Part shown: positions 5,702 to 21,321 of the stretch, piece by piece
Layout: every line of letters starts with the position of its first letter
Position numbering within the stretch: position 1 is the stretch's first letter
Virus record (IMG/VR): IMGVR_UViG_3300036832_000102
Coordinates: 1 to 28,592 of that record
Origin: a virus
Reading direction: 5' to 3' (one strand)
Length of the DNA stretch: 28,592 bases
Notes under the pieces: model-generated
Told to the model about the DNA's origin: nothing
The model's database searches: none
Seen by the model: the letters and a program-made list of their open reading frames with translations, nothing else
Made by a program: the position numbers and the translations under genes

Positions 5702-6136
5702 ATGCCGATGCAAGCGGTAGCATGGGAAGAGTATTACGTTCCAGAGCCTAACTCTGGATGTTGGTTGTGGGACAGGAGAACTGATTGGGATGGTTATGGG
5801 ATAATAAAGCGGAATAGGACATCACACCGAGCACACAGACTTATGTGGACACAGACACATGGACCAATCCCTGAAGGGACACTCGTTTGTCATACTTGTG
5901 ATATTCCTTCCTGTGTGAATCCAGACCACTTATTCCTTGGCACGTACAAAGAAAACTCAGAAGACATGGTACGCAAAGGACGTAAGCTGCGTCCTTTCGA
6001 TGTATATAGTCATTGTGTTAATGGACACGAACTGACCGATGACAATATATACATTGTGCCCCGCACAGGTAAAAGGCAGTGCCGTCTGTGTCAATATGAA
6101 GTCAATCAACGACGCTGGGAAGCAGGATTGCGGTAG
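5702..6136 (+). CDS. Free-standing HNH endonuclease, 144 residues
   Basis: A mobile homing-type endonuclease. The HNH core is clear: GCWLW at about 19-23, DGYG at 30-33, AHRLMW at 44-49, then CHTCD at 63-67 and [10 protein letters not shown] at 71-80, giving H64, N73 and H76 as the likely catalytic and metal-binding set with cysteines 63, 66 and 71 for zinc. A second zinc-binding site follows: C105, H109, C127, C130 (CVNGHEL and CRLC). It has its own ribosome binding site (GGAG, 7 bases before ATG) and breaks the stop-start overlap pattern of its neighbours. Arginine is often encoded by AGA/AGG here, unlike the CGT/CGC-rich genes around it, as expected for an inserted gene. It would cut DNA of related phages lacking it, near the terminase gene. 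Confidence 0.9.
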
Positions 6137-10352: not shown

Positions 10353-11401
10353 TGAGCGGAACAGAAGACAGCATACTTGGTACTATTCCTGACTTTCAGG
10401 AGGATAGCGGTGGTGAAGCGACGGGCGGCGAGACTGGCGGCAGCACGCAAGGCGGTGAGAGTTCCGGTAGTGAAGGCCGATCCTCAGCCCAACCTACACA
10501 GGCGGATACTGCTGGCAGCGCAGCACAACGTGCTCCGCAGGGCGCTGTTAGGCGTAGACACGACGGACTCATCGAGCAGCCCAACCCCAACAATCCTAAT
10601 ACCCGTGATCTAGTCGATCCGGTTAGTGGGCGTGTAGTTGCACAAGGTGGCATCGAACGTAGGATATACGAAGATAGCCAGCGCACGATGCGTGAGAATA
10701 ACACGCTGCAACAGCGTGTGCGTGGACTAGAGGGTGCACTGCGTTCGTCGAACGAGGTAGTGCACGAGGCAGCAAGGCTTGGCGTGCAGCCAGAGGACCA
10801 GAAGATAGCCATACGTGTGATGGCTGACTTCATGCGTGATCCTGTTAGGACACTGCAAGGTCTGGTAGAGGAAGTTAAGAGCAAGGGCTACCAGATACCG
10901 TTCCTGGCTGAAGGCATCAATCCAGGTATGGACATGCAAGCGTTGTCACGCATGATCGACGCTAAGCTGCATCCGATAACGAACCAGCACATGCAGCAAG
11001 CGCAGATGGTGCAACAGCGCCAAGCTGCCGAGCGTGACCTCAATCAGTTCATCGATGAGAACCAAGAGGCCAACGCGAACCTTGACGTGCTTGCAGAAAT
11101 GTTGCAGGCTCAGCCGAACCTGCCGCTTCAGTCGGCCTATACGAAGATGATTCGTTGGGCGCACGAGAACGGCCTCGATTGGACGCAGCCACTAAAGGCA
11201 CAGATTGCCGCGCTGCGCCAACAGCAGACTACTCCCCAGCCACAAGTTGAAACGCGCCCACTGCCAACTAGGCGCAGTGTGAACCAAGCAGGCACCGCTC
11301 GTATGAACGGTGCAGGTGCTCAGCAGCAGTTCAGCGAGAATGCATCGTGGGCGGACATCATTCGCAGTGCGATGCAAGAGAGTGGTGGACAACTTAACTG
11401 A
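10352..11401 (+). CDS. Probable capsid scaffolding protein, 349 residues
   Basis: Likely guides coat assembly and leaves before DNA fills the head. Position between portal and major capsid is the classical place. The N-terminal 80 residues are acidic, Gly/Ser/Thr-rich and disordered; a long helical, coiled-coil-like stretch follows at about 101-145 (RTMRENNTLQQRVRGLEGAL), more Gln/Ala-rich helix at about 205-250 (HMQQAQMVQQRQAAERDL), and a short helical end (SWADIIRSAMQES, about 331-343) that could be the coat-binding tip. No protease motif is visible. The ATG at 10352 is preferred over GTG at 10349 because it forms the usual TGATG overlap, with AAGGG 8 bases upstream. Confidence 0.75.
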   Translation: MSGTEDSILGTIPDFQEDSGGEATGGETGGSTQGGESSGSEGRSSAQPTQADTAGSAAQRAPQGAVRRRHDGLIEQPNPNNPNTRDLVDPVSGRVVAQGGIERRIYEDSQRTMRENNTLQQRVRGLEGALRSSNEVVHEAARLGVQPEDQKIAIRVMADFMRDPVRTLQGLVEEVKSKGYQIPFLAEGINPGMDMQALSRMIDAKLHPITNQHMQQAQMVQQRQAAERDLNQFIDENQEANANLDVLAEMLQAQPNLPLQSAYTKMIRWAHENGLDWTQPLKAQIAALRQQQTTPQPQVETRPLPTRRSVNQAGTARMNGAGAQQQFSENASWADIIRSAMQESGGQLN

Positions 11402-11412
11402 TGGAGTAGTCA

Positions 11413-12381
11413 ATGCCTGTTGGAACAATCGTCCCGGCTGTTGCAGACGTTCTGCACAGCACGTTGACGAAGAGTAGACGTAAGTTGGTTATGGCATCGA
11501 TCAAGAGCAACGCGCTGATGGCGTGGGTGTTCAGCAATGATCGAGTGGAGTACGAGGATGGTGGTTACAACATCACCAATCCGCTGACTGTTGGACGTAA
11601 CCCCAACGTCACATCGTACAACTACTACATGCCACTGCCGGTCAATCAGACTGATGAGTTCGACACGGTTGAGTATGGGTACAGCCGTGTAGCTGGCAGT
11701 GTTATCATCAGCGATCAGGAGCAGGACGAGAACAACGGTGCTGCTGCTATCTTCAAGCTGATGAAGGAGAAGATGAACGTCCTTGAAGAGAGCATCAAGG
11801 ACAAGTTCTCGCAGTACTTGTATGCAGTGGGTGGTGGCACGGACCCTCTCGGATTGGGCAGTGTGCTGCCCACGAACCCGACAGTTGGCACACTTGGCGG
11901 GATCAACCGTGCGACGCAGCCACAGTGGCGCACTTCTGCTTACTTGTTTGCGGGTGGAATGGATAGCACGAACATCGAAGAAGTGTTCGATGATGTGCTC
12001 ATGGACTTGACGCTGAAAGGCGACAAGCCAAGCGTGATTCTTGCTGGTCGCAACATCTACCGCATGTATCGTCAGGCTGTGCGCGACAAGATGACCATAC
12101 CACTGAGTGAGGGCAAGGCTGGCAAACGCATGTTCGATCTTGGCTTCGAGGGCGTGCTGCACAATGGCATCCCCATCTTGTATGATGAGGACTGTCCGGT
12201 AGCGTATGCCTACTTCATCAATGACACGTATCTGCGCTTGCACATGCTTCGTGGCGTTAATATGAAGGTCAAAGAGCTTGTGGCTCCGTGGAATGTCGAT
12301 GCTGTAGGTTCCAGAGTAGTCTGGCAAGGGCAATGGTGTTTGTGGAGGGCTTATCGTACCCACGGTGTCCTTACGAATTAG
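11413..12381 (+). CDS. Major capsid protein, HK97-like, 322 residues
   Basis: The coat subunit. The size, position after scaffold and internal pattern fit a HK97-fold capsid protein: an N-terminal arm, then a region with TNPLTVGRNPNV and EFDTVEYGYSRVAG, a long spine-type helix at about 116-140 (AIFKLMKEKMNVLEESIKDKF), a central domain, and the C-terminal strand-rich part ending with RVVWQGQWCLWRAYR. No N-terminal protease-processing pattern is evident. Unlike most neighbours it does not overlap the previous gene: an 11-base gap carries GGAG 6 bases before the ATG, as expected for the most abundant virion protein. Long antisense frames across it are shadows. Confidence 0.85.
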   Translation: MPVGTIVPAVADVLHSTLTKSRRKLVMASIKSNALMAWVFSNDRVEYEDGGYNITNPLTVGRNPNVTSYNYYMPLPVNQTDEFDTVEYGYSRVAGSVIISDQEQDENNGAAAIFKLMKEKMNVLEESIKDKFSQYLYAVGGGTDPLGLGSVLPTNPTVGTLGGINRATQPQWRTSAYLFAGGMDSTNIEEVFDDVLMDLTLKGDKPSVILAGRNIYRMYRQAVRDKMTIPLSEGKAGKRMFDLGFEGVLHNGIPILYDEDCPVAYAYFINDTYLRLHMLRGVNMKVKELVAPWNVDAVGSRVVWQGQWCLWRAYRTHGVLTN

Positions 12382-13865: not shown

Positions 13866-14567
13866 ATGCCTGTGCTAGTCAAAGACGTAGTGAACGCGGT
13901 AATCAACGAGTTGTCGCAAGTGCCAGGCATTGCGACGCAGACCTATTCATCGAACATCATTCGACAGTTCGTGCAGAACGCTTATCTGCTTGAGTCGGAT
14001 GAGATGTGGTGGCCGAACTACATGTATTACCAGACTGTAGGGCTCGACGGTGTGACAGGCATGCTCACCGCTGACTTACAGGGACCACTCAGCTTCATAG
14101 ATGAATACACAGACATAGCGGCAGTGTGGCCAGAAGGCAGCAATCGCAAGTTGCGTGAGATACCGCCCGGTGTCAATCCGTATACGCAGATGGCCAGCGG
14201 TAGAGTGTTCTACATCGCTCCCGATACGACGTATCCACACAGACCGTTTAAGGTGTATCCACCGAATAGCAGTGGCAATGTTGTCGTGTGGGCACGTCAA
14301 TCCAACACACTGCCGTTTGCTGATGGCGACAAGATATACCTTGACCAGTTGTTGCTCACGTATGACGCATGCTGGATGTATACGACAGACGACGGCACAG
14401 TGCCTGCACAGGTGAACAAGTACCAGATGCTGGCAGTGAAGCGTCGTAAGCAGTTGAAGGCTAACTTGGCACAGCATCCGCTAGAGCTTGATCCACGGTT
14501 CCCATCGTCCGACCTGTTGATCGATCAGTCGAACATACCTGAGACATTTACAGTGGAGCGCCTGTAG
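13866..14567 (+). CDS. Head-tail adaptor / tail tube A-like protein, 233 residues
   Basis: Likely forms the ring between portal and short tail. The N-terminus is helical (VKDVVNAVINELSQVPG), followed by SNIIRQFVQNAYLLESDEMWW, a pattern typical of adaptor proteins in which each subunit clamps the portal. The middle is beta-rich with aromatic residues (WPEGSNRKLREIPPGVNPYTQ), and a helical region at about 160-205 (LDQLLLTYDACWMYTTDD, then KYQMLAVKRRKQLKANL) follows. Length matches T7-type gp11 and related adaptors. Strong ribosome binding site AGGAG 6 bases before ATG after the hairpin at 13810-13846. The stop overlaps the next gene, which starts with GTG (TAGTG). Confidence 0.65.
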   Translation: MPVLVKDVVNAVINELSQVPGIATQTYSSNIIRQFVQNAYLLESDEMWWPNYMYYQTVGLDGVTGMLTADLQGPLSFIDEYTDIAAVWPEGSNRKLREIPPGVNPYTQMASGRVFYIAPDTTYPHRPFKVYPPNSSGNVVVWARQSNTLPFADGDKIYLDQLLLTYDACWMYTTDDGTVPAQVNKYQMLAVKRRKQLKANLAQHPLELDPRFPSSDLLIDQSNIPETFTVERL

Positions 14568-16276
14568 TGTATCTCGACAAACAGCGTGGGCTAGATGCAA
14601 AGCCCATGGGTGCAGTTCTGTCGATACAGACTAGCACTGTGCGAGCGTTCGATGGTGGGCTGAATGTGACAGACACCGATCTGAACATGTCACCGAAGTA
14701 CGCCAAGATACTCGACAACATCGAGCGTTCGGCTGATGGTTCGTTGGCTGTGCGTCCTGGCACTAAGTTCTTCAGCAGTCATCTGTGGGACACGACTGCG
14801 ATTGTGAACCACATCTACTTCAATGCGTATGTGATCGCAGTGCAGAACAGTGGTGCGTTCACTCGCATCGATGGCACTGGTGCTGGCACGAACATGTCAC
14901 GTGTTGCAGCACCTGCCAACACGAAGCCGTGGGACACTGGCAACGTCACGTATACATCGTTCACTGTATTCAACAGTGATCTGATCGCATGCAATGGCAA
15001 GGACAAGCCTATACTGGTGAAGGGCAGTCCTGCTGATCCCAACTACATGCTGGCACAGTATCTAGTCGATGAAGCGACGGGTACTAACGTCAACACACCA
15101 GTTGGCAAGTATGTGATTGCACATGGTCAGTACACAATCATCGCTGGTGTATCGACAGCACCGAGCACGATCTTCATTAGTGCACAGGGCACCAGTGGTA
15201 CGTATGTTGCTGATCCAGCACCGAACGATGCAGTGAACATCAACCTCGGTCCGCGTGTGTCACTCGGCAGTGCGACCATCACTGGCATGGTTGCGTATCG
15301 TGATAAGCTGTTGGTTACGTTCGAGCGTGGCGTGCTACCGATGAATCTTGGTGTATACACTGGTTCACCTGCTGTGCACACGCCAACTGATGACGGCTTC
15401 ATCGAAGAGTTTGGCTGTCTGTGTCACAGATCACTGGTGTCGGTTGGTGATGACACGTTCTTCAATGACAACGTGGGCATCAACTCGATCAACCGTGTCA
15501 ATGTGTTCAACACACTGCGTCCTGTGCGTGCGAGCCATCTGGTTGATCCGCTGACTACTGCTGCGATCCAGCCGCTGACTACTGCACAGGTGCAGCAGTA
15601 TATGTTCGCAGTCTATGACTTGCGGAACTTCAGATACATGTTGTTCGTGCCTGTGTTCGACAGCTTCGGCACACTGCAAGAGACTGTGTGCTTCAGCTAT
15701 ACGAACATACCAACGTTGCAGGTGCAAGCGTGGGCACGATTACGTGGTTGGAAGTGGCAGTCTGCTTGTCGCACTAGCTTGCAGAACATCATCTTCAGTC
15801 AGGGTGCAAAGCTCTACTCGTACTCGTTCGATGATCCAGGTGACACGTGCGATCTGTTCAATGATCCAGCGGTGAACAACGGCGCTGGCATCCCTGTTAC
15901 GTTCGATTGGGAGATGCCGTGGGCTGACATGAAGCATCGCATGAACACGAAGACAGTGCGCTATCTAGGTGTGGACACGAAGGGTACAGCGCAGTTCACC
16001 GTGCGTGCGTATGTAGACAACATCTACACATATAATGGTGTAGACAGTCCACTGCTCACGATGGAGTTCATCGGTGGAGACAGCGGTGGCTATGGTGGCA
16101 CGCCGTATGGCAACACACCGTATGGTGGTGGTAGGCGCACCAGTGAGGAGCGGTTGTATGCGTTCCCGATGAAGTTCAAGATCATGAAGCTGCGGTTCAG
16201 TGGCACAACGACTGAGCCGCTACGGTTCGTCAGTGTGTCGATTGGCTACAACGGTGGCAGTCTTAGGAGAAGCTGA
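14567..16276 (+). CDS. Tail tube B / gp10-like tail protein, 569 residues
   Basis: Probable large tail-tube or DNA-stabilisation protein closing the portal channel. The N-terminal motif FDGGLNVTDTDLNMSP (about 29-44) with SADGSLAVRPGT (about 57-68) is the characteristic opening of these beta-propeller-like tail proteins; the rest is strand-rich with repeated aromatic segments (MVAYRDKLLVTFERG, YMFAVYDLRNFRYMLF, ARLRGWKWQSACR). A Gly/Tyr-rich insertion lies near 505-525 (GGYGGTPYGNTPYGGG). GTG at 14567 is taken as start because it overlaps the previous TAG; an internal ATG at 14606 lacks a ribosome binding site. Follows the adaptor gene and precedes the fibres, as expected for a short tail. 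Confidence 0.7.
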   Translation: MYLDKQRGLDAKPMGAVLSIQTSTVRAFDGGLNVTDTDLNMSPKYAKILDNIERSADGSLAVRPGTKFFSSHLWDTTAIVNHIYFNAYVIAVQNSGAFTRIDGTGAGTNMSRVAAPANTKPWDTGNVTYTSFTVFNSDLIACNGKDKPILVKGSPADPNYMLAQYLVDEATGTNVNTPVGKYVIAHGQYTIIAGVSTAPSTIFISAQGTSGTYVADPAPNDAVNINLGPRVSLGSATITGMVAYRDKLLVTFERGVLPMNLGVYTGSPAVHTPTDDGFIEEFGCLCHRSLVSVGDDTFFNDNVGINSINRVNVFNTLRPVRASHLVDPLTTAAIQPLTTAQVQQYMFAVYDLRNFRYMLFVPVFDSFGTLQETVCFSYTNIPTLQVQAWARLRGWKWQSACRTSLQNIIFSQGAKLYSYSFDDPGDTCDLFNDPAVNNGAGIPVTFDWEMPWADMKHRMNTKTVRYLGVDTKGTAQFTVRAYVDNIYTYNGVDSPLLTMEFIGGDSGGYGGTPYGNTPYGGGRRTSEERLYAFPMKFKIMKLRFSGTTTEPLRFVSVSIGYNGGSLRRS

Positions 16277-18042
16277 TGACTGCATTCACTCCTATCCTAA
16301 AGCTGTCACTGCCTGACTTCGACCAGGAGCCGTGGGATCAGCTTGTCAATGATGACTTCAGCGTGCTGGATGCAGCGGTTGGTCGCTTCATCGGTGTAGC
16401 TAATGTAGTAGGTGTGTGGAAGAACGGCATCACGTATGCAGTTGGGCAGGCCGCAGTTGATGGTGCTGACAGCAGCATCTGGACAGCCGTTGTCACCAAT
16501 ACAGCACCTGCTGCACCAACGCCGTTTGCACAGGACAGGACGAACCGCCCAGGCAACTGGACACTGTTGCAGTCCACTGCACAGGACTTTGCCATACAGG
16601 CACAGACAGCAGCCACCAATGCTGCACAATCTGCGGCTAGTGCAGCGAATAGTGCTGCGGCTGTAGCTGGTGCACTGCCACTGACTGGCGGCACGATGTC
16701 TGGCTCGCTGATCTTGGCGCATGATCCAACTGCGACGAACGAAGCTGCAACCAAGAACTATGTGGACGCACATACGTCACCAGGTGGTGCAGTAATTGGT
16801 GATATTCCGCCAGCAGTGGCACCGAGCGGATCGCTGTGGTGGGATAGTGCACATGGACAGCTATACATTCAGTATGCTGATCCCAACACTACACAGTGGG
16901 TTGTAGCCAACAACTTCACAGGCGTTGCAGGTGTCTCGTCATTCAACACACGACAGGGTGACATCACACTGACGCTTGGTGACGTGATAGGTGTTGGTGG
17001 AGCACCGAGTGCGTCGCCATCGTTCAGCGGTAATCCGACTGCACCGACACCACCGCCTGGTGATGCAGACACGAGTATTGCGACGAGTGCATTCGTGCAG
17101 GCTGCTGTCGCACCTGCTTTGGGCAACAATGGCCGCAACCTGCTGCACAATGGCTTGTTTAATGTTGTGCAGCGCGGTAATGGAGCATGGACAACGAACG
17201 GCGCCTACACCGCCGACAGGTGGAGAATATCGTATGCTTTAGATACGGTATCCTTTGTGGCGGCGCAGTTTGGGATACCGTCGCTCGTTGGCGATGAAGC
17301 AATAACGCGCGGCATTTCTAATACGTTCACTGGCAACGCTGGTGCGGGAGCATACACAGCATTAGCGCAACCCATTGAGAGTGTGGCGAGGCTAGCGAAT
17401 AAAACAGTCACGCTCTCGTTTTATGCCGCAGCTAACAGTGGAACACCTAAACTCGGCGCATCTCTTGACCAGGGCTTTGGGACTGGCGGCTCACCATCGG
17501 CTACAGTTAACAATAATGGTCAGTCGGTGACGCTTTCGACATCCTGGCAGCGTTATTCGCTGACATTCACGCTGGCGAGTTTGAGCGGAAAAACGTTAGG
17601 CACGAATGGCGATGACTACACAATACTCTATTTCTGGTATTCGTCGGGCAGCTCGTTCGCAGCACGATCTGGCAATGTCGGCGTGCAATCCGGCCTCATC
17701 TACATTACTGGCGTCCAACTAGAGATCGGCTCTGTTGCAACACAACTAGAGAAGATCGAGTATGCTGACGATTTGAGGCATTGCCAACGCTTCTTTTACA
17801 TCGGGCAAATAGCATACTATGGCTATGGTGTTGCAGCAGTGGCTATTGCGCAGACATTTGCGTTACCGACTCAAATGCGCGCAGGTCCGACGGTAACAAT
17901 AACCAGCAATAACTCTGGCAACGTCACATCACCTGGAGGCTTTAGCTTATACGCAGGAGGCTTACTGTATTTTTCAGGGACGATCACTGCAACGGGATCG
18001 TTCACCTTGAATGTAAATTTCACCGCCAGCGCGGACCTATAA
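16276..18042 (+). CDS. Tail fibre 1, 588 residues
   Basis: Receptor-binding tail fibre. The N-terminal 110 residues (LSLPDFDQEPWDQLVND, DAAVGRFIG) probably attach to the tail. An Ala/Asn/Gln-rich helix follows (about 107-130), then standard fibre modules: LPLTGGTMSGSL (about 135-146) with NEAATKNYVD, VSSFNTRQGDITLTLGDV (about 219-236) and SGNPTAPTPP with TSAFVQAAV. From about 285 a jelly-roll-like C-terminal domain opens with NLLHNGLFNVVQRG and YTADRW and ends with GVQLEIGSVATQLEK and DLRHCQRFFY plus a terminal strand-rich piece; it is homologous to the same region of fibre 2. Base and codon use changes near 17200 and stays different to the gene end. Start overlaps the previous stop (TGATG) with AGGAG 6 bases upstream. 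Confidence 0.85.
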   Translation: MTAFTPILKLSLPDFDQEPWDQLVNDDFSVLDAAVGRFIGVANVVGVWKNGITYAVGQAAVDGADSSIWTAVVTNTAPAAPTPFAQDRTNRPGNWTLLQSTAQDFAIQAQTAATNAAQSAASAANSAAAVAGALPLTGGTMSGSLILAHDPTATNEAATKNYVDAHTSPGGAVIGDIPPAVAPSGSLWWDSAHGQLYIQYADPNTTQWVVANNFTGVAGVSSFNTRQGDITLTLGDVIGVGGAPSASPSFSGNPTAPTPPPGDADTSIATSAFVQAAVAPALGNNGRNLLHNGLFNVVQRGNGAWTTNGAYTADRWRISYALDTVSFVAAQFGIPSLVGDEAITRGISNTFTGNAGAGAYTALAQPIESVARLANKTVTLSFYAAANSGTPKLGASLDQGFGTGGSPSATVNNNGQSVTLSTSWQRYSLTFTLASLSGKTLGTNGDDYTILYFWYSSGSSFAARSGNVGVQSGLIYITGVQLEIGSVATQLEKIEYADDLRHCQRFFYIGQIAYYGYGVAAVAIAQTFALPTQMRAGPTVTITSNNSGNVTSPGGFSLYAGGLLYFSGTITATGSFTLNVNFTASADL

Positions 18043-18043
18043 C

Positions 18044-19234
18044 ATGCCACTCGATTTCCCTGCATCACCGAACACTGGTGACATCTACCCGTCGTCGGGC
18101 AGCACACGTTGGCAGTGGAATGGCACTGCATGGACTGCACTCGCTGGTGCAGGACCGACGTATGCACCGATCAACTCACCTGTGCTGACTGGTGATCCGC
18201 AGGCACCGACTGCAACGTATGGTGACAGTGATGCGTCGCTGGCTACGACTGCGTTCGTGCAGAGTGCGGTGGCACCACAGCGGAACAACACCGGGCGCAA
18301 CCTGGTGCATAACGCGCAGTTCAACGTGCAACAGCGTGGCAATCCAGGGTGGACAGTCGGCGGTAGCTACACGGCTGATCGTTGGATGATGAATTTCGGC
18401 ACGGGCGATGCGAATACCGTCGGCATCGCCACGTTGACCGATACAGCGCGATCTGACATCGGCGACGAATCTGCGGTCAATGGCCTAAGCTGTAATTTCA
18501 CCGGTTCGGCGAATGTCGCCGGTTTCGTCAATGTCCTGCAACGCATCGAAAACGTGCGACGGCTGGCGGGTAAAACCGCAACCCTGTCATTCTGGGCAAA
18601 TACCTCAGTCGCCGGATTGAAGCTCGGCGTCAATGCAACGCAGGTATTCGGCACTGGCGGCTCGCCTTCCGCTGCCGTGCAAATACTGGCAACCGGATTG
18701 TCCGTCACCCTCGGCACCACATGGGCGCGGTATTCGGTTAGTCTGCCGTTTCCGTCTGTAGCCGGTAAAACATTCGGGACAAACGGCGACCATCTGATTG
18801 CGCTGCAACTATGGTATTCGTCCGGTGCCAATTTTAACACTGTCGCTGGCAACATCGGCGTGCAGTCCGGTGTGATAAACCTTTGGGGCGTGCAACTCGA
18901 AATCGGCAGCGTCGCGACGCCACTCGAAAAGCTGGAAGCAGCCGACGATCTAAGGCACTGCCAACGCTTCGCATACAACGCACTCGGCTCGGTGTTCGCC
19001 TCCGGATACCATCCGACCGCCAGCGGATTGTCAGTGTTCGCGACCCGGTTTTTCCCGGCACAGATGCGGGCCGCGCCAACCGTCAGCGGACAGTCATTCA
19101 CCGGGAGTATCAACAACACCGCACCGGCGGCTTTTCACGTTGCTAACGATCACGTCGTGTGGTCCGCCGCCAATCTCGCGGCCGGATCGTTTCAGCTAAA
19201 CGTGGCTGGCGAATTTTACTCGGCGGACTTGTGA
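18044..19234 (+). CDS. Tail fibre 2, 396 residues, paralogue of fibre 1
   Basis: Second receptor-binding protein. The short N-terminus (MPLDFPASPNTGDIY, RWQWNGTAWTALAG) is a common small phage-fibre module, followed by LTGDPQAPTATYGD and ATTAFVQSAV. From about residue 82 it matches fibre 1: NLVHNAQFNVQQRG, YTADRW, a long beta-rich body with FGTGGSPSA, LWYSSGANF, then GVQLEIGSVATPLEK and DLRHCQRFAYN. The last about 90 residues differ from fibre 1. It lacks the long tail-attachment part of fibre 1, so it may ride on fibre 1 or another tail protein. It starts one base after the fibre 1 stop without a ribosome binding site. Codon use from about 18290 to the end is rich in CG-containing codons, unlike the operon and unlike fibre 1. 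Confidence 0.85.
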   Translation: MPLDFPASPNTGDIYPSSGSTRWQWNGTAWTALAGAGPTYAPINSPVLTGDPQAPTATYGDSDASLATTAFVQSAVAPQRNNTGRNLVHNAQFNVQQRGNPGWTVGGSYTADRWMMNFGTGDANTVGIATLTDTARSDIGDESAVNGLSCNFTGSANVAGFVNVLQRIENVRRLAGKTATLSFWANTSVAGLKLGVNATQVFGTGGSPSAAVQILATGLSVTLGTTWARYSVSLPFPSVAGKTFGTNGDHLIALQLWYSSGANFNTVAGNIGVQSGVINLWGVQLEIGSVATPLEKLEAADDLRHCQRFAYNALGSVFASGYHPTASGLSVFATRFFPAQMRAAPTVSGQSFTGSINNTAPAAFHVANDHVVWSAANLAAGSFQLNVAGEFYSADL

Positions 19235-19236
19235 AC

Positions 19237-19269
19237 ATGGCCAGCGAATACCAGCACATCACTACATGA
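19237..19269 (+). CDS. Ten-codon mini reading frame coupled to the next gene
   Basis: ATG two bases after the fibre 2 stop opens MASEYQHITT and stops at TGA 19267-19269, overlapping the ATG of the acetyltransferase-like gene as ATGA. The following gene has no visible ribosome binding site, so translation of this mini frame could supply ribosomes by coupling. It may instead be the remnant of a longer fibre-related gene lost during exchange of fibre ends. Not proven to be translated. Confidence 0.3.
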   Translation: MASEYQHITT

Positions 19270-19736
19270 TCGTCATTGAACCACTGACGTTCGAGACAGT
19301 GCCGTATGCTACACAGTTAGCCAAGGAGCTACATGAGCTTGGTGTGTATGGTCGCATAGGACCAGCGTTCGATTGGGACCACACGCTGAAGGTGATGATC
19401 CGTGTAATCAAGAACGATGACTACTGCTTCAAGCTGGCAAAGGTAGATGGACAGTATACAGGTGCAGTGGTCGGACACGTCGAGCCATTCTTCTTCTCGC
19501 CAAAGAACGGTGCGATTGAGGATGCATGGTTCGTGCGGCCCGGCTCACCTGAGCGAACGAAGGCAGCAGTGATGCTAATGCGCCAGTTCGTAGCGTGGGC
19601 ACTCGATGAGAAGCAAGCGACACAAGTGCAGTCAGGTGACATCGCTGACATAGACAGCTTCGCAGTCGATAACATCTATCGACATCTTGGCTTCAGGCGG
19701 TTCGGCTCAATCTACAAGTTTCAGAGGGATACGTGA
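19266..19736 (+). CDS. GNAT-like acetyltransferase-fold protein 1, 156 residues
   Basis: Fold resembles GNAT acetyltransferases: a beta strand with GAVVGHVEPFFF (about 65-76), ending IYRHLGFRRFGSIYKF (about 137-152), the usual C-terminal 'Y..LGF' element. The acetyl-CoA loop, normally Q/RxxGxG/A, would fall at about 91-98 and reads PGSPERTKAA, without the glycines, so catalytic activity is doubtful. No ribosome binding site; start by ATGA overlap with the mini frame. It lies between the fibres and the internal virion proteins, and its stop overlaps the next gene (TGATG). A virion-linked or host-modifying role is inference. Confidence 0.65.
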   Translation: MIVIEPLTFETVPYATQLAKELHELGVYGRIGPAFDWDHTLKVMIRVIKNDDYCFKLAKVDGQYTGAVVGHVEPFFFSPKNGAIEDAWFVRPGSPERTKAAVMLMRQFVAWALDEKQATQVQSGDIADIDSFAVDNIYRHLGFRRFGSIYKFQRDT

Positions 19737-20875
19737 TGTTTACTCCCGGTGGACAGATCGATCACCTGTCGTTCGCTGGTGTGCGAGGCGGGGGTAAAGG
19801 TGGTGGTGGTCAGCAACAGGCACCATCCAAGCCGCAGGTGTACACTGATCCTGTCAACGGTATGTCGTTCACTGACGATGTTGGTTATACGTATGGGCCA
19901 CAAGCTGATGGCACGATGGGCTATACACTTGGACCAACACAGACAGGCTCGGACAAGCTGAACGCTGAGATAGCTCAGCGTAAGGCACAAGAACAGGCTA
20001 CGAGTGATGCCGCTACAGCTACTGCTCAGCAGAAAGCAGACACTGCTGAGAGCACGTTCCAATCGACACGCACCAATGCATACAACGATGCGATGACATC
20101 TGCGTTGCAAGCGTTCCAGCGTGCTGGTGTCGATCCGAACGCATACAAGGATACGTATATCACGCCTGCATTGCAGCGTCAGTACAACTCGATACAGGAC
20201 TTGGACCCGAACCCGTATGCCAGCTTTGCGTCAACGCTCGGTGATACGATTGTCAATCAGGCAACTGGTGACAAGCGCACTGCTGCACTGAACCAACTGA
20301 ACTCGACGTTCAATCCTACGTACTCGTCCTCTGCACTGCCTGATGCAACGACTGGTGACTACGTGAACCAGATCGTGAATGAACAGTTCGATCCGTTGAG
20401 CCAGCAGCTTATCAATGCACAGAAGCGTGGCACACTCACGGATCAAGGCTACAGTGCTGCACTGGCTGCACTGAACCAGAAGAAGAGTGCAGCGACCAGC
20501 ACAGTGCAGAACCTCGGTGCAGGCATCCTGAGTGGTGATCGCTCAGCACTTGATGACTACATCAGTGGTGCACGGACCAACGTGAACAACATGACGCTGG
20601 GCTCCACGTTCGATCCAGATGCTTACAAGACAGGTGCAAGCAATCTAGTCAACACTGACTTGTCTAACTTCGGTGGTGCGCTGCGTAATGCAGTTGGTGG
20701 CTCCAAGTTCGCTGACATCACTGACCTGATTAGTGCAGGTGGTGCGGTGCAAGGCGCAAACAACCCGACAGCAGCTAACCCAACAGGCGGCACACCTGGC
20801 ACGTCACCTGCATTCACACCTGACGATCAGCTTGAACAGCAGAAGCGTGGGCTTGGTAACCAAGGTGCGTTCTGA
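19736..20875 (+). CDS. Internal virion / ejection protein A, 379 residues
   Basis: Probably packed in the head and ejected with the DNA. The start at 19736 makes the TGATG overlap, with GAGGG upstream; GTG at 19733 is possible but not needed. After a Gly-rich opening (RGGGKGGGGQQQ) there is a long Ala/Gln/Thr helical segment at about 70-110 (AEIAQRKAQEQATSDAAT), further helical segments (NAYNDAMTSALQAFQRAG) and a disordered Gly/Pro/Asn tail. No enzyme motif. Composition and place after the tail genes, before another Ala-rich protein with a hydrophobic N-terminus, match internal core proteins of short-tailed phages (T7 gp14-gp16, P22 gp7/gp20/gp16 as types). Confidence 0.6.
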   Translation: MFTPGGQIDHLSFAGVRGGGKGGGGQQQAPSKPQVYTDPVNGMSFTDDVGYTYGPQADGTMGYTLGPTQTGSDKLNAEIAQRKAQEQATSDAATATAQQKADTAESTFQSTRTNAYNDAMTSALQAFQRAGVDPNAYKDTYITPALQRQYNSIQDLDPNPYASFASTLGDTIVNQATGDKRTAALNQLNSTFNPTYSSSALPDATTGDYVNQIVNEQFDPLSQQLINAQKRGTLTDQGYSAALAALNQKKSAATSTVQNLGAGILSGDRSALDDYISGARTNVNNMTLGSTFDPDAYKTGASNLVNTDLSNFGGALRNAVGGSKFADITDLISAGGAVQGANNPTAANPTGGTPGTSPAFTPDDQLEQQKRGLGNQGAF

Positions 20876-21321
20876 TGATCTTGCTCGGATCACTGCAAGG
20901 CAAAGACTGTGATGAGTGTGATGCACTGATCCGTGACTACTATGCACGTAGCAATGCATCCGATGGCATGTCGAAGCTGGCAATCAACTGGCAACGCTAT
21001 GCAGCAATGGAACGTGCTGGTGCGTGCTTCCTATTCTTGGACCGTGATGAGCAACTGAACGGCTTCGCACTCTACATGCTCTACGATCACATGCACCATG
21101 AGGCACAGTGTATAGCGCAGTGCACCATGATCGGTGTGCAGCTAGAGGCACGTGGTAAAGGTGTAGGACGTGGACTGATTGAAGCTGCAATCTTGTTCTT
21201 CAAGCCAATGGGCGTTACGCACGTAGTACATCAGCACAGACTGATCTATGACACAGAGCCATTGTTCGAGAAGCTAGGCTTCAAGAAGATTGAAGTCTCC
21301 TACATGAAGGAGCTTGGCTGA
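20875..21321 (+). CDS. GNAT acetyltransferase-like protein 2, 148 residues
   Basis: A more canonical GNAT than its upstream relative. The acetyl-CoA pyrophosphate loop is intact: VQLEARGKGVGRGLIEAA at about 86-103 with the RGKGVG core, preceded by a beta strand containing AQCTMIGV. The end carries LFEKLGFKKIE (about 130-140), the typical closing element. The N-terminus (LLGSLQGKDCDECDALIRDYY) is helical with two close cysteines. Substrate unknown: candidates are host proteins, a virion protein or a small molecule. The start overlaps the stop of ejection protein A (TGATG), and its own stop overlaps the next ejection protein start, so it is embedded in the core-protein cluster. Confidence 0.75.
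   Translation: MILLGSLQGKDCDECDALIRDYYARSNASDGMSKLAINWQRYAAMERAGACFLFLDRDEQLNGFALYMLYDHMHHEAQCIAQCTMIGVQLEARGKGVGRGLIEAAILFFKPMGVTHVVHQHRLIYDTEPLFEKLGFKKIEVSYMKELG

Follow-up and report, generated by a model that had tools for sequence, protein, structure and literature searches.

The DNA examined here, referred to as the window, is the IMG/VR virus record IMGVR_UViG_3300036832_000102, which is 28,592 nt long and derives from a soil virus of bacteria. Family searches of the window identify genes for the small and large terminase subunits, the portal and the major head protein on the + strand. The subject of this analysis is a tandem pair of tail fibre genes on that same strand, F1 (16276..18042, 588 residues) and F2 (18044..19234, 396 residues), the reading frames of which are both intact. 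The two proteins match the same PHROG tail fibre family, phrog_4492, over a C-terminal module (E 3.2e-51 for F1 and 2.1e-55 for F2). In both genes the codon use changes near the beginning of this module, and in relatives of the phage equivalent modules are exchanged as cassettes between conserved borders.

The C-terminal modules are clearly homologous: residues 239-581 of F1 align to F2 at 51% identity (about 49-51% over the C-parts as a whole), and the motifs that an earlier, sequence-only reading of this DNA had described as common to both fibres (NLxHN..QRG..YTADRW, GVQLEIGSVAT.LEK and DLRHCQRF) are all present in F1 and F2. Identity is unevenly distributed, however, at 49% over the first 191 residues, 89% over the 28-residue stretch GVQLEIG..CQRF and 40% over the remaining tip. 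The cassette, about 0.9 kb in length, has two parts, a sandwich and a tip, and is bordered by box 1 (GRNLxHN..QRG), box 2 (GVQLEIG..CQRF) and the stop codon.

In F1, an N-terminal anchor (residues 1-180, 16276..16815) is followed by a shaft or collar region with the motif DTSIATxAFV and native codon use (16816..17136; Z +0.8 against the phage's own backbone for the whole N-part, 16276-17136). Box 1 (GRNLLHNGLFNVVQRG, 17131..17178) forms the left junction of the cassette, which continues with a predicted beta-sandwich resembling family 4 carbohydrate-binding modules (CBM4; 17137..17709), box 2 (GVQLEIGSVATQLEK..DLRHCQRF, 17710..17793) at the junction of sandwich and tip, and the C-terminal tip, ending in TASADL (17794..18039). 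F2 has a short N-part with native codon use (MPLDFPASPNTGDIY..., 18044..18298), followed by its own box 1 (GRNLVHNAQFNVQQRG, 18293..18340), predicted CBM4-like sandwich (18299..18886), box 2 (18887..18970) and tip, ending in YSADL (18971..19231; GC content at third positions, GC3, 0.71). The first 34 residues of F2 (MPLDFPASPNTGDIY..WQWNGTAW, 18044-18145) recur at approximately 50-65% identity in many large phage contigs, which have no match to the remainder of the protein.

Codon use within the fibre genes

Composition was scored on synonymous codons only, relative to the operon. On this scale the N-parts of F1 and F2 (Z -0.3 and +2.0) follow the operon, in agreement with the sequence-only reading, and the C-parts depart from it strongly (Z -8.2 and -9.4); the lowest value among 300-codon stretches elsewhere in the window is -2.21. 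Sandwich and tip are each foreign in both genes (Z -5.8 and -5.1 in F1, -4.8 and -5.2 in F2). Box 2 is not (Z -0.7 and -1.0), although its 28 codons provide low power. In a change-point test of 19 genes, F1 and F2 reach p <= 0.0005, and the minimum among the remaining 17 is 0.0245, in the major head protein gene. Allowing a switch improves the model by 17.2 nats in F1 and 43.2 nats in F2, compared with -3.8 to 8.7 nats in 13 control genes. Uniform codon statistics, which the sequence-only reading had named as an argument against replacement, are contradicted by a switch within each of the two fibre genes and in no control gene. The weaker change in the major head protein gene concerns its 3' end (12163-12381) and corresponds to the gain of 8.7 nats.

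The position and the style of the switches are only partly as first described. Their 95% intervals are 17104-17218 in F1 and 18356-18416, just 3' of box 1, in F2; measured from NLxHN, they overlap solely at about +19 to +27 codons. Both switches are real, and the position of 17200 proposed for F1 falls within its interval, but 18290 does not hold for F2, and a common place in the domain is confined to that overlap. The F2 C-part, described as CG-rich, has C-rich third positions (C3 0.40). The F1 C-part had been described as T-richer, which is not the case overall (T3 0.24, versus 0.30 in the N-part), although it over-uses TTT, AAT and TTA. Plain GC content is nearly flat across F1. Between the two C-parts, codon use differs modestly (p = 0.015).

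When 231 codon references (the loci of relatives plus the window) were ranked, the phage's own backbone came 2nd for the F1 N-part and 6th for the F2 N-part, but 80th and 139th for the respective C-parts; the references point to no single donor. The sole other strong codon outlier in the window is an HNH endonuclease gene outside the cassettes (5702..6136, + strand; PF13392, E 8.3e-15), with Z -6.4. HNH endonuclease genes are of a type known to move, which makes this one a positive control for the codon score. It directly precedes the large terminase gene.

Cassettes, boxes and fibre slots in relatives

Direct evidence for exchange comes from pairs of sibling phages, whose loci are designated here by L numbers. 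In the first fibre of L137 and L139, the N-parts are mostly 90-98% identical and the cassette drops to about 50%, save for an island of 82-100% at box 2. In the second fibre, the N-part is 94-98% identical, the cassette is again at about 50%, and identity returns to 98% immediately beyond it. This is a double replacement of the kind proposed for F1 and F2, found in a relative. Single swaps with the same borders are present in L119/L121 and L175/L245, where the flanks and fibre N-parts are kept and the C-module has about 50% DNA identity. In L170 and L255, DNA identity is 72-88% through the sandwich and 32-58% from inside box 2 onward; because the drop begins inside box 2, only the tip differs. 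The converse situation is represented by L164 and L173, otherwise unrelated contigs with a common 936-nt cassette (99.25% identity) that extends from box 1 to just beyond the stop codon and points to a transfer in the recent past; their remaining matches are short, weaker and mostly to related cassettes. The three sibling pairs L119/L121, L137/L139 and L175/L245, together with L164/L173, support the idea that phages swap C-terminal cassettes at a shared conserved junction. Among the relatives found, there is no sibling of the window's own phage with differing adhesin segments.

The second fibre gene of L137 (10675-11846) has a frame change near 10990-11016, at the start of the cassette, which is consequently read in another frame there; this may stem from a frameshift or an error of assembly, or the gene may be broken.

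Across the family, 149 cassette frames (83 distinct ends) were collected, of which 76 were retained as complete and distinct cassettes. When each is compared with its own contig, with loci of fewer than 1200 other codons excluded, cassettes have a mean codon Z of -3.75 (n=69), and the N-parts of the same genes a mean of -0.64 (n=63). The cassette scores below its N-part in 48 of 63 genes (paired p = 1.7e-6); by backbone cluster, the same holds for 15 of 20 (p = 0.015). Distances among sandwiches and among tips are hardly correlated (Mantel 0.12, p = 0.083), compared with 0.27 (p = 0.007) for the two sandwich halves and 0.30 (p = 0.003) for the tip halves, which suggests that sandwich and tip may shuffle independently. 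At the thresholds used, like tips with unlike sandwiches occur in one pair only, and weakly (L098/L246, 51% and 47%).

The boxes are conserved at the level of DNA. Exact in-register runs of at least 23 nt were counted for 51 cassettes, after removal of 13 distant rows, a copy and a truncated row, in the 1032 cassette pairs whose contigs share less than 500 nt of backbone DNA. There are 29 such runs, 23-32 nt in length, of which 11 fall in box 1, 17 in box 2 and 1 elsewhere; the box borders used in this classification were set after seeing where the runs fell, and the rest of the alignment constitutes an internal control. In 60 within-sequence shuffles of synonymous codons, the mean was 1.57 runs and the maximum 5. 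The segment VRRLAGKTVTVSFWA is no less conserved than the boxes in amino acids, yet its codon identity is not raised (ratio 0.94) and none of the runs falls in it. Box 1 of F1 and L164 have 23 nt in common. A literature search, mainly outside subscription papers, turned up no text that deals with these boxes.

The genes surrounding F1 and F2 are far better conserved than the cassettes. The nearest relative, a single contig (L003/L083), is 98.8% identical in the head protein, 88% in the upstream flanking gene (14567..16276, no family match) and 95.5% in the downstream flanking gene, which encodes a GNAT-type acetyltransferase (19266..19736, phrog_1249), both of them on the + strand. Its F1 anchor is 57% identical over 180 residues, beyond which the gene has no further match; the F1 C-part is matched best (53%) by part of another gene, a 996-residue frame in the slot called A below, and hence in a different slot. 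The prediction that would count against exchange, namely that the cassettes evolve like the rest of the locus, is therefore contradicted. A second, differing acetyltransferase-like (GNAT) gene is present in the tail region at 20875-21321, and another conserved gene without a family match occupies 13866-14567 on the + strand.

The gene at 14567 marks the border of two fibre slots, slot A before and slot B after its homologues, as surveyed in 80 loci encoding a relative of it (some being copies of one phage). Counting the window, 35 of 49 measurable loci have a slot A longer than 1 kb, and a slot B above this length is present in 41 of 57. The window has an empty slot A and two fibres in slot B, a layout also seen in L137 and L139-L141. 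An F1-type anchor lies directly 3' of the 14567 homologue in 59 of the 74 loci with room for one, again counting the window, but its usual end is different: of 38 distinct complete fibres in slot B, 36 were scanned, and 27 of these match a Peptidase_S74 chaperone, a match that F1 lacks. Fibre genes occur before, after or on both sides of the 14567-16276 homologue, as if whole genes hop between slots.

In a search bearing on the host, a cassette profile finds five loci among GTDB contigs, in two Thiodictyon and two Sulfuricurvum contigs from metagenome-assembled genomes and in one Pseudomonas lini genome. The terminase of the window has no relative among GTDB genome contigs, and in the named phage records that were searched it has none exceeding 60% identity.

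Probable exchange and its alternatives

The explanation that best accommodates these observations, and one that we consider highly probable as a whole, is that each fibre would be built from a conserved N-terminal part (anchor or shaft) joined to a C-terminal adhesin cassette, about 0.9 kb long, that can be exchanged. Most likely, the boxes would offer co-infecting phages short stretches of homology for recombination and so guide the exchange; either the whole cassette or the tip alone would be replaced, and the anchor would stay. Both fibres of this phage would have taken cassettes from phages of other codon use, probably separately. A wider version of this model, in which unrelated phages that differ greatly in base composition share one pool of two-part cassettes, with sandwich and tip shuffled independently at the two boxes and the stop codon and with some phages stacking at least two cassette genes in a row, stands at roughly even chances. 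If it is true, box 2 is a second, internal exchange site, and new adhesins can arise by combining sandwiches and tips.

Several results weigh against cassette exchange. There is no donor for either C-part among the relatives, the best being 55% identical to that of F1 and 57% to that of F2. The F2 switch lies 19-39 codons past NLxHN, rather than at the motif. The longest exact run between the two C-parts is 12 nt, so that no recent exchange between them or via their boxes is seen. Across the family, GC3 of the C-parts still tracks that of the backbone, if less steeply than in the N-parts (slope 0.78 versus 1.06); the cassette fails to score below its N-part in 15 of 63 rows and 5 of 20 clusters; and the cassettes of L093, L255 and L261 are more typical than their own backbone. 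As several cassettes go the opposite way, foreign codon use is a tendency and not a rule.

It could be that no exchange took place, and that the C-parts diverged rapidly in place under host selection, with codon use changing as a by-product. Receptor-binding ends are expected to evolve fast, and these C-parts have diverged far, but a shift in synonymous codons within a single gene is not readily accounted for in this way. Nor are the sharp steps in identity at box 1 and the stop codon, or an island at box 2 that reaches up to 100% between siblings. The near-identical cassette in the otherwise unrelated L164 and L173 contradicts divergence in place for the family, for which, along with the sharp steps, we reject it; for F1 and F2 it is very unlikely. 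The hypervariable C-terminus of a tail protein also recalls the targets of diversity-generating retroelements, and rewriting of the tips by such an element was considered. The 28.6-kb record, which may be a fragment, contains no match to the reverse transcriptase family PF00078, the fibre region has no near-identical template repeat, and the variation spans approximately 300 residues with indels. This explanation was rejected as extremely improbable.

A different objection concerns the boxes themselves, which might owe their DNA-level conservation to something else, for instance an RNA element or control of translation, with swaps arising by illegitimate recombination wherever the protein still folds. 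The exact runs between independent backbones are short, and recombination is known here from sequence alone, both of which leave room for this view. The crossovers of sibling pairs nevertheless coincide with the boxes or the stop codon. We regard this alternative as rather unlikely; recombination between the boxes is the mechanism we infer.

The number of events in the window is less certain than exchange itself. Two separate replacements, as first proposed, are probable. A single event, in which a ready-made tandem pair was acquired or one cassette was duplicated in place and then diverged, is compatible with the approximately unbiased (AU) test, which does not reject F1 and F2 C-parts as sisters (p-AU 0.263), and with the clustering of tandem copies in some phages (L180, L183). 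The cassette tree, built from 66 cassettes after near-copies and overlong rows were dropped, resolves poorly, with stars on 13 of its 63 inner branches; the L142 trio is likewise not rejected (p = 0.0655). However, the F2 N-part that lies between the two C-parts has native codon use, the C-parts are just 49-50% identical and differ in codon use, and most copies from one phage lie apart from each other on the tree (L142, L166, L137, L139, L163, L251, L270). In L137 and L139, both cassettes changed and the intervening DNA is 94-98% conserved. A single event appears unlikely. L142, L164 and L166 each carry three cassette-bearing fibre genes per contig, and the L164 cassettes are near-identical at their starts and ends.

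With cassette exchange as the explanation, what began as a composition anomaly becomes a well-supported instance of adhesin exchange whose junctions are mapped, and the phage family concerned is distant from named records. In the sibling pairs, swap experiments have in effect been done by nature, and the boxes could be handles with which to retrieve receptor-binding cassettes from metagenomes and ask which cassette binds what.

Predicted binding and known systems

AlphaFold2 models of the C-parts (pLDDT 89.7 for F1 and 87.5 for F2) predict a beta-sandwich (residues 1-198 of the F1 model and 1-203 of the F2 model), a helix corresponding to the DLRHCQRF stretch and a beta-rich tip. The predicted sandwiches align with CBM4-2 of a Rhodothermus xylanase (2y64) over 156 residues in F1 (Z 15.3, root-mean-square deviation 2.6) and 161 residues in F2 (Z 16.1, root-mean-square deviation 2.7), and the predicted sandwich fold is carbohydrate-binding-like. 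The fold matches include phage spike domains (CBA120 TSP4, 5w6h; K2-2 TSP, 8iqe; Kp7 gp52, 7xyc). CBM4-type modules and the CBM-like domains of phage spikes thus have the same predicted sandwich fold, with 8-23% sequence identity among the matches listed. These searches were dominated by the sandwich and barely covered the tip; the structure alignments drew on 48 of the 66 cassettes in the tree. In BFVD, the matches are to tail fibres from many phages, Xanthomonas phage OP1h among them. At the sequence level, Pfam CBM_4_9 (PF02018) scores F1 at 24.9 bits, below its cut-off of 25.9, and does not match F2, and no solved protein is related by sequence, the four weak matches being designed proteins by name.

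From these models, both C-parts are likely to bind a surface sugar, and each cassette may set a receptor, giving this phage two different ones. The C-terminal CBM of Klebsiella phage KP32 is described as required for binding to the capsule, yet it conferred no specificity on other proteins (PMC13082707), and receptor-setting by each cassette accordingly stays an inference. In the account given in PMC2248197, host-range changes in the OP1 group are ascribed to duplications in the N-terminal part of the fibre and not to the C-part.

Adhesin swapping between conserved motifs is already known, and F1 and F2 are a clear new example. In T-even phages, receptor-binding adhesin segments are exchanged at conserved motifs in or beside the fibre genes. 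The likeness lies in conserved sequence at both ends of the segment (here box 1 and box 2, and the stop-codon end in L164/L173 and the siblings) and in the occurrence of different adhesin segments on the same backbone (L119/L121, L137/L139, L175/L245); the difference is in the protein family, here a predicted CBM4-like sandwich and tip in tandem genes, and in the kind of evidence, which for these fibres is confined to sequence.

Other systems are comparable in part. Mosaic receptor-binding proteins, in which close phages keep the N-part and exchange the C-terminal domain, are described by Smug et al. (2023, PMC10684548), who place recent mosaicism across phage families mainly in tail fibres and spikes; compared with the mosaicism described there, the exchanged cassettes here stay homologous and their junctions are conserved in DNA. 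The tail spike clusters of Ackermannviridae have several receptor-binding genes in a row, with conserved parts as recombination sites, and the receptor-binding domain of one gene can be replaced by that of another (PMC11414711). The conserved parts described in that source are the N-terminal XD/TD domains, whereas the boxes here flank the C-terminal binding module. In the T5-like phages DT57C and DT571/2, the neighbouring proteins LtfA and LtfB both have receptor-recognition domains, with different specificities, and a section heading of the same paper attributes a change in host range to recombination within ltfA (PMC4728585). Those lateral fibres are unrelated to F1 and F2, and in that paper the receptors were tested. 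The present case contributes a mapped cassette of two parts whose borders are conserved in DNA and which circulates among phages that are otherwise unrelated.

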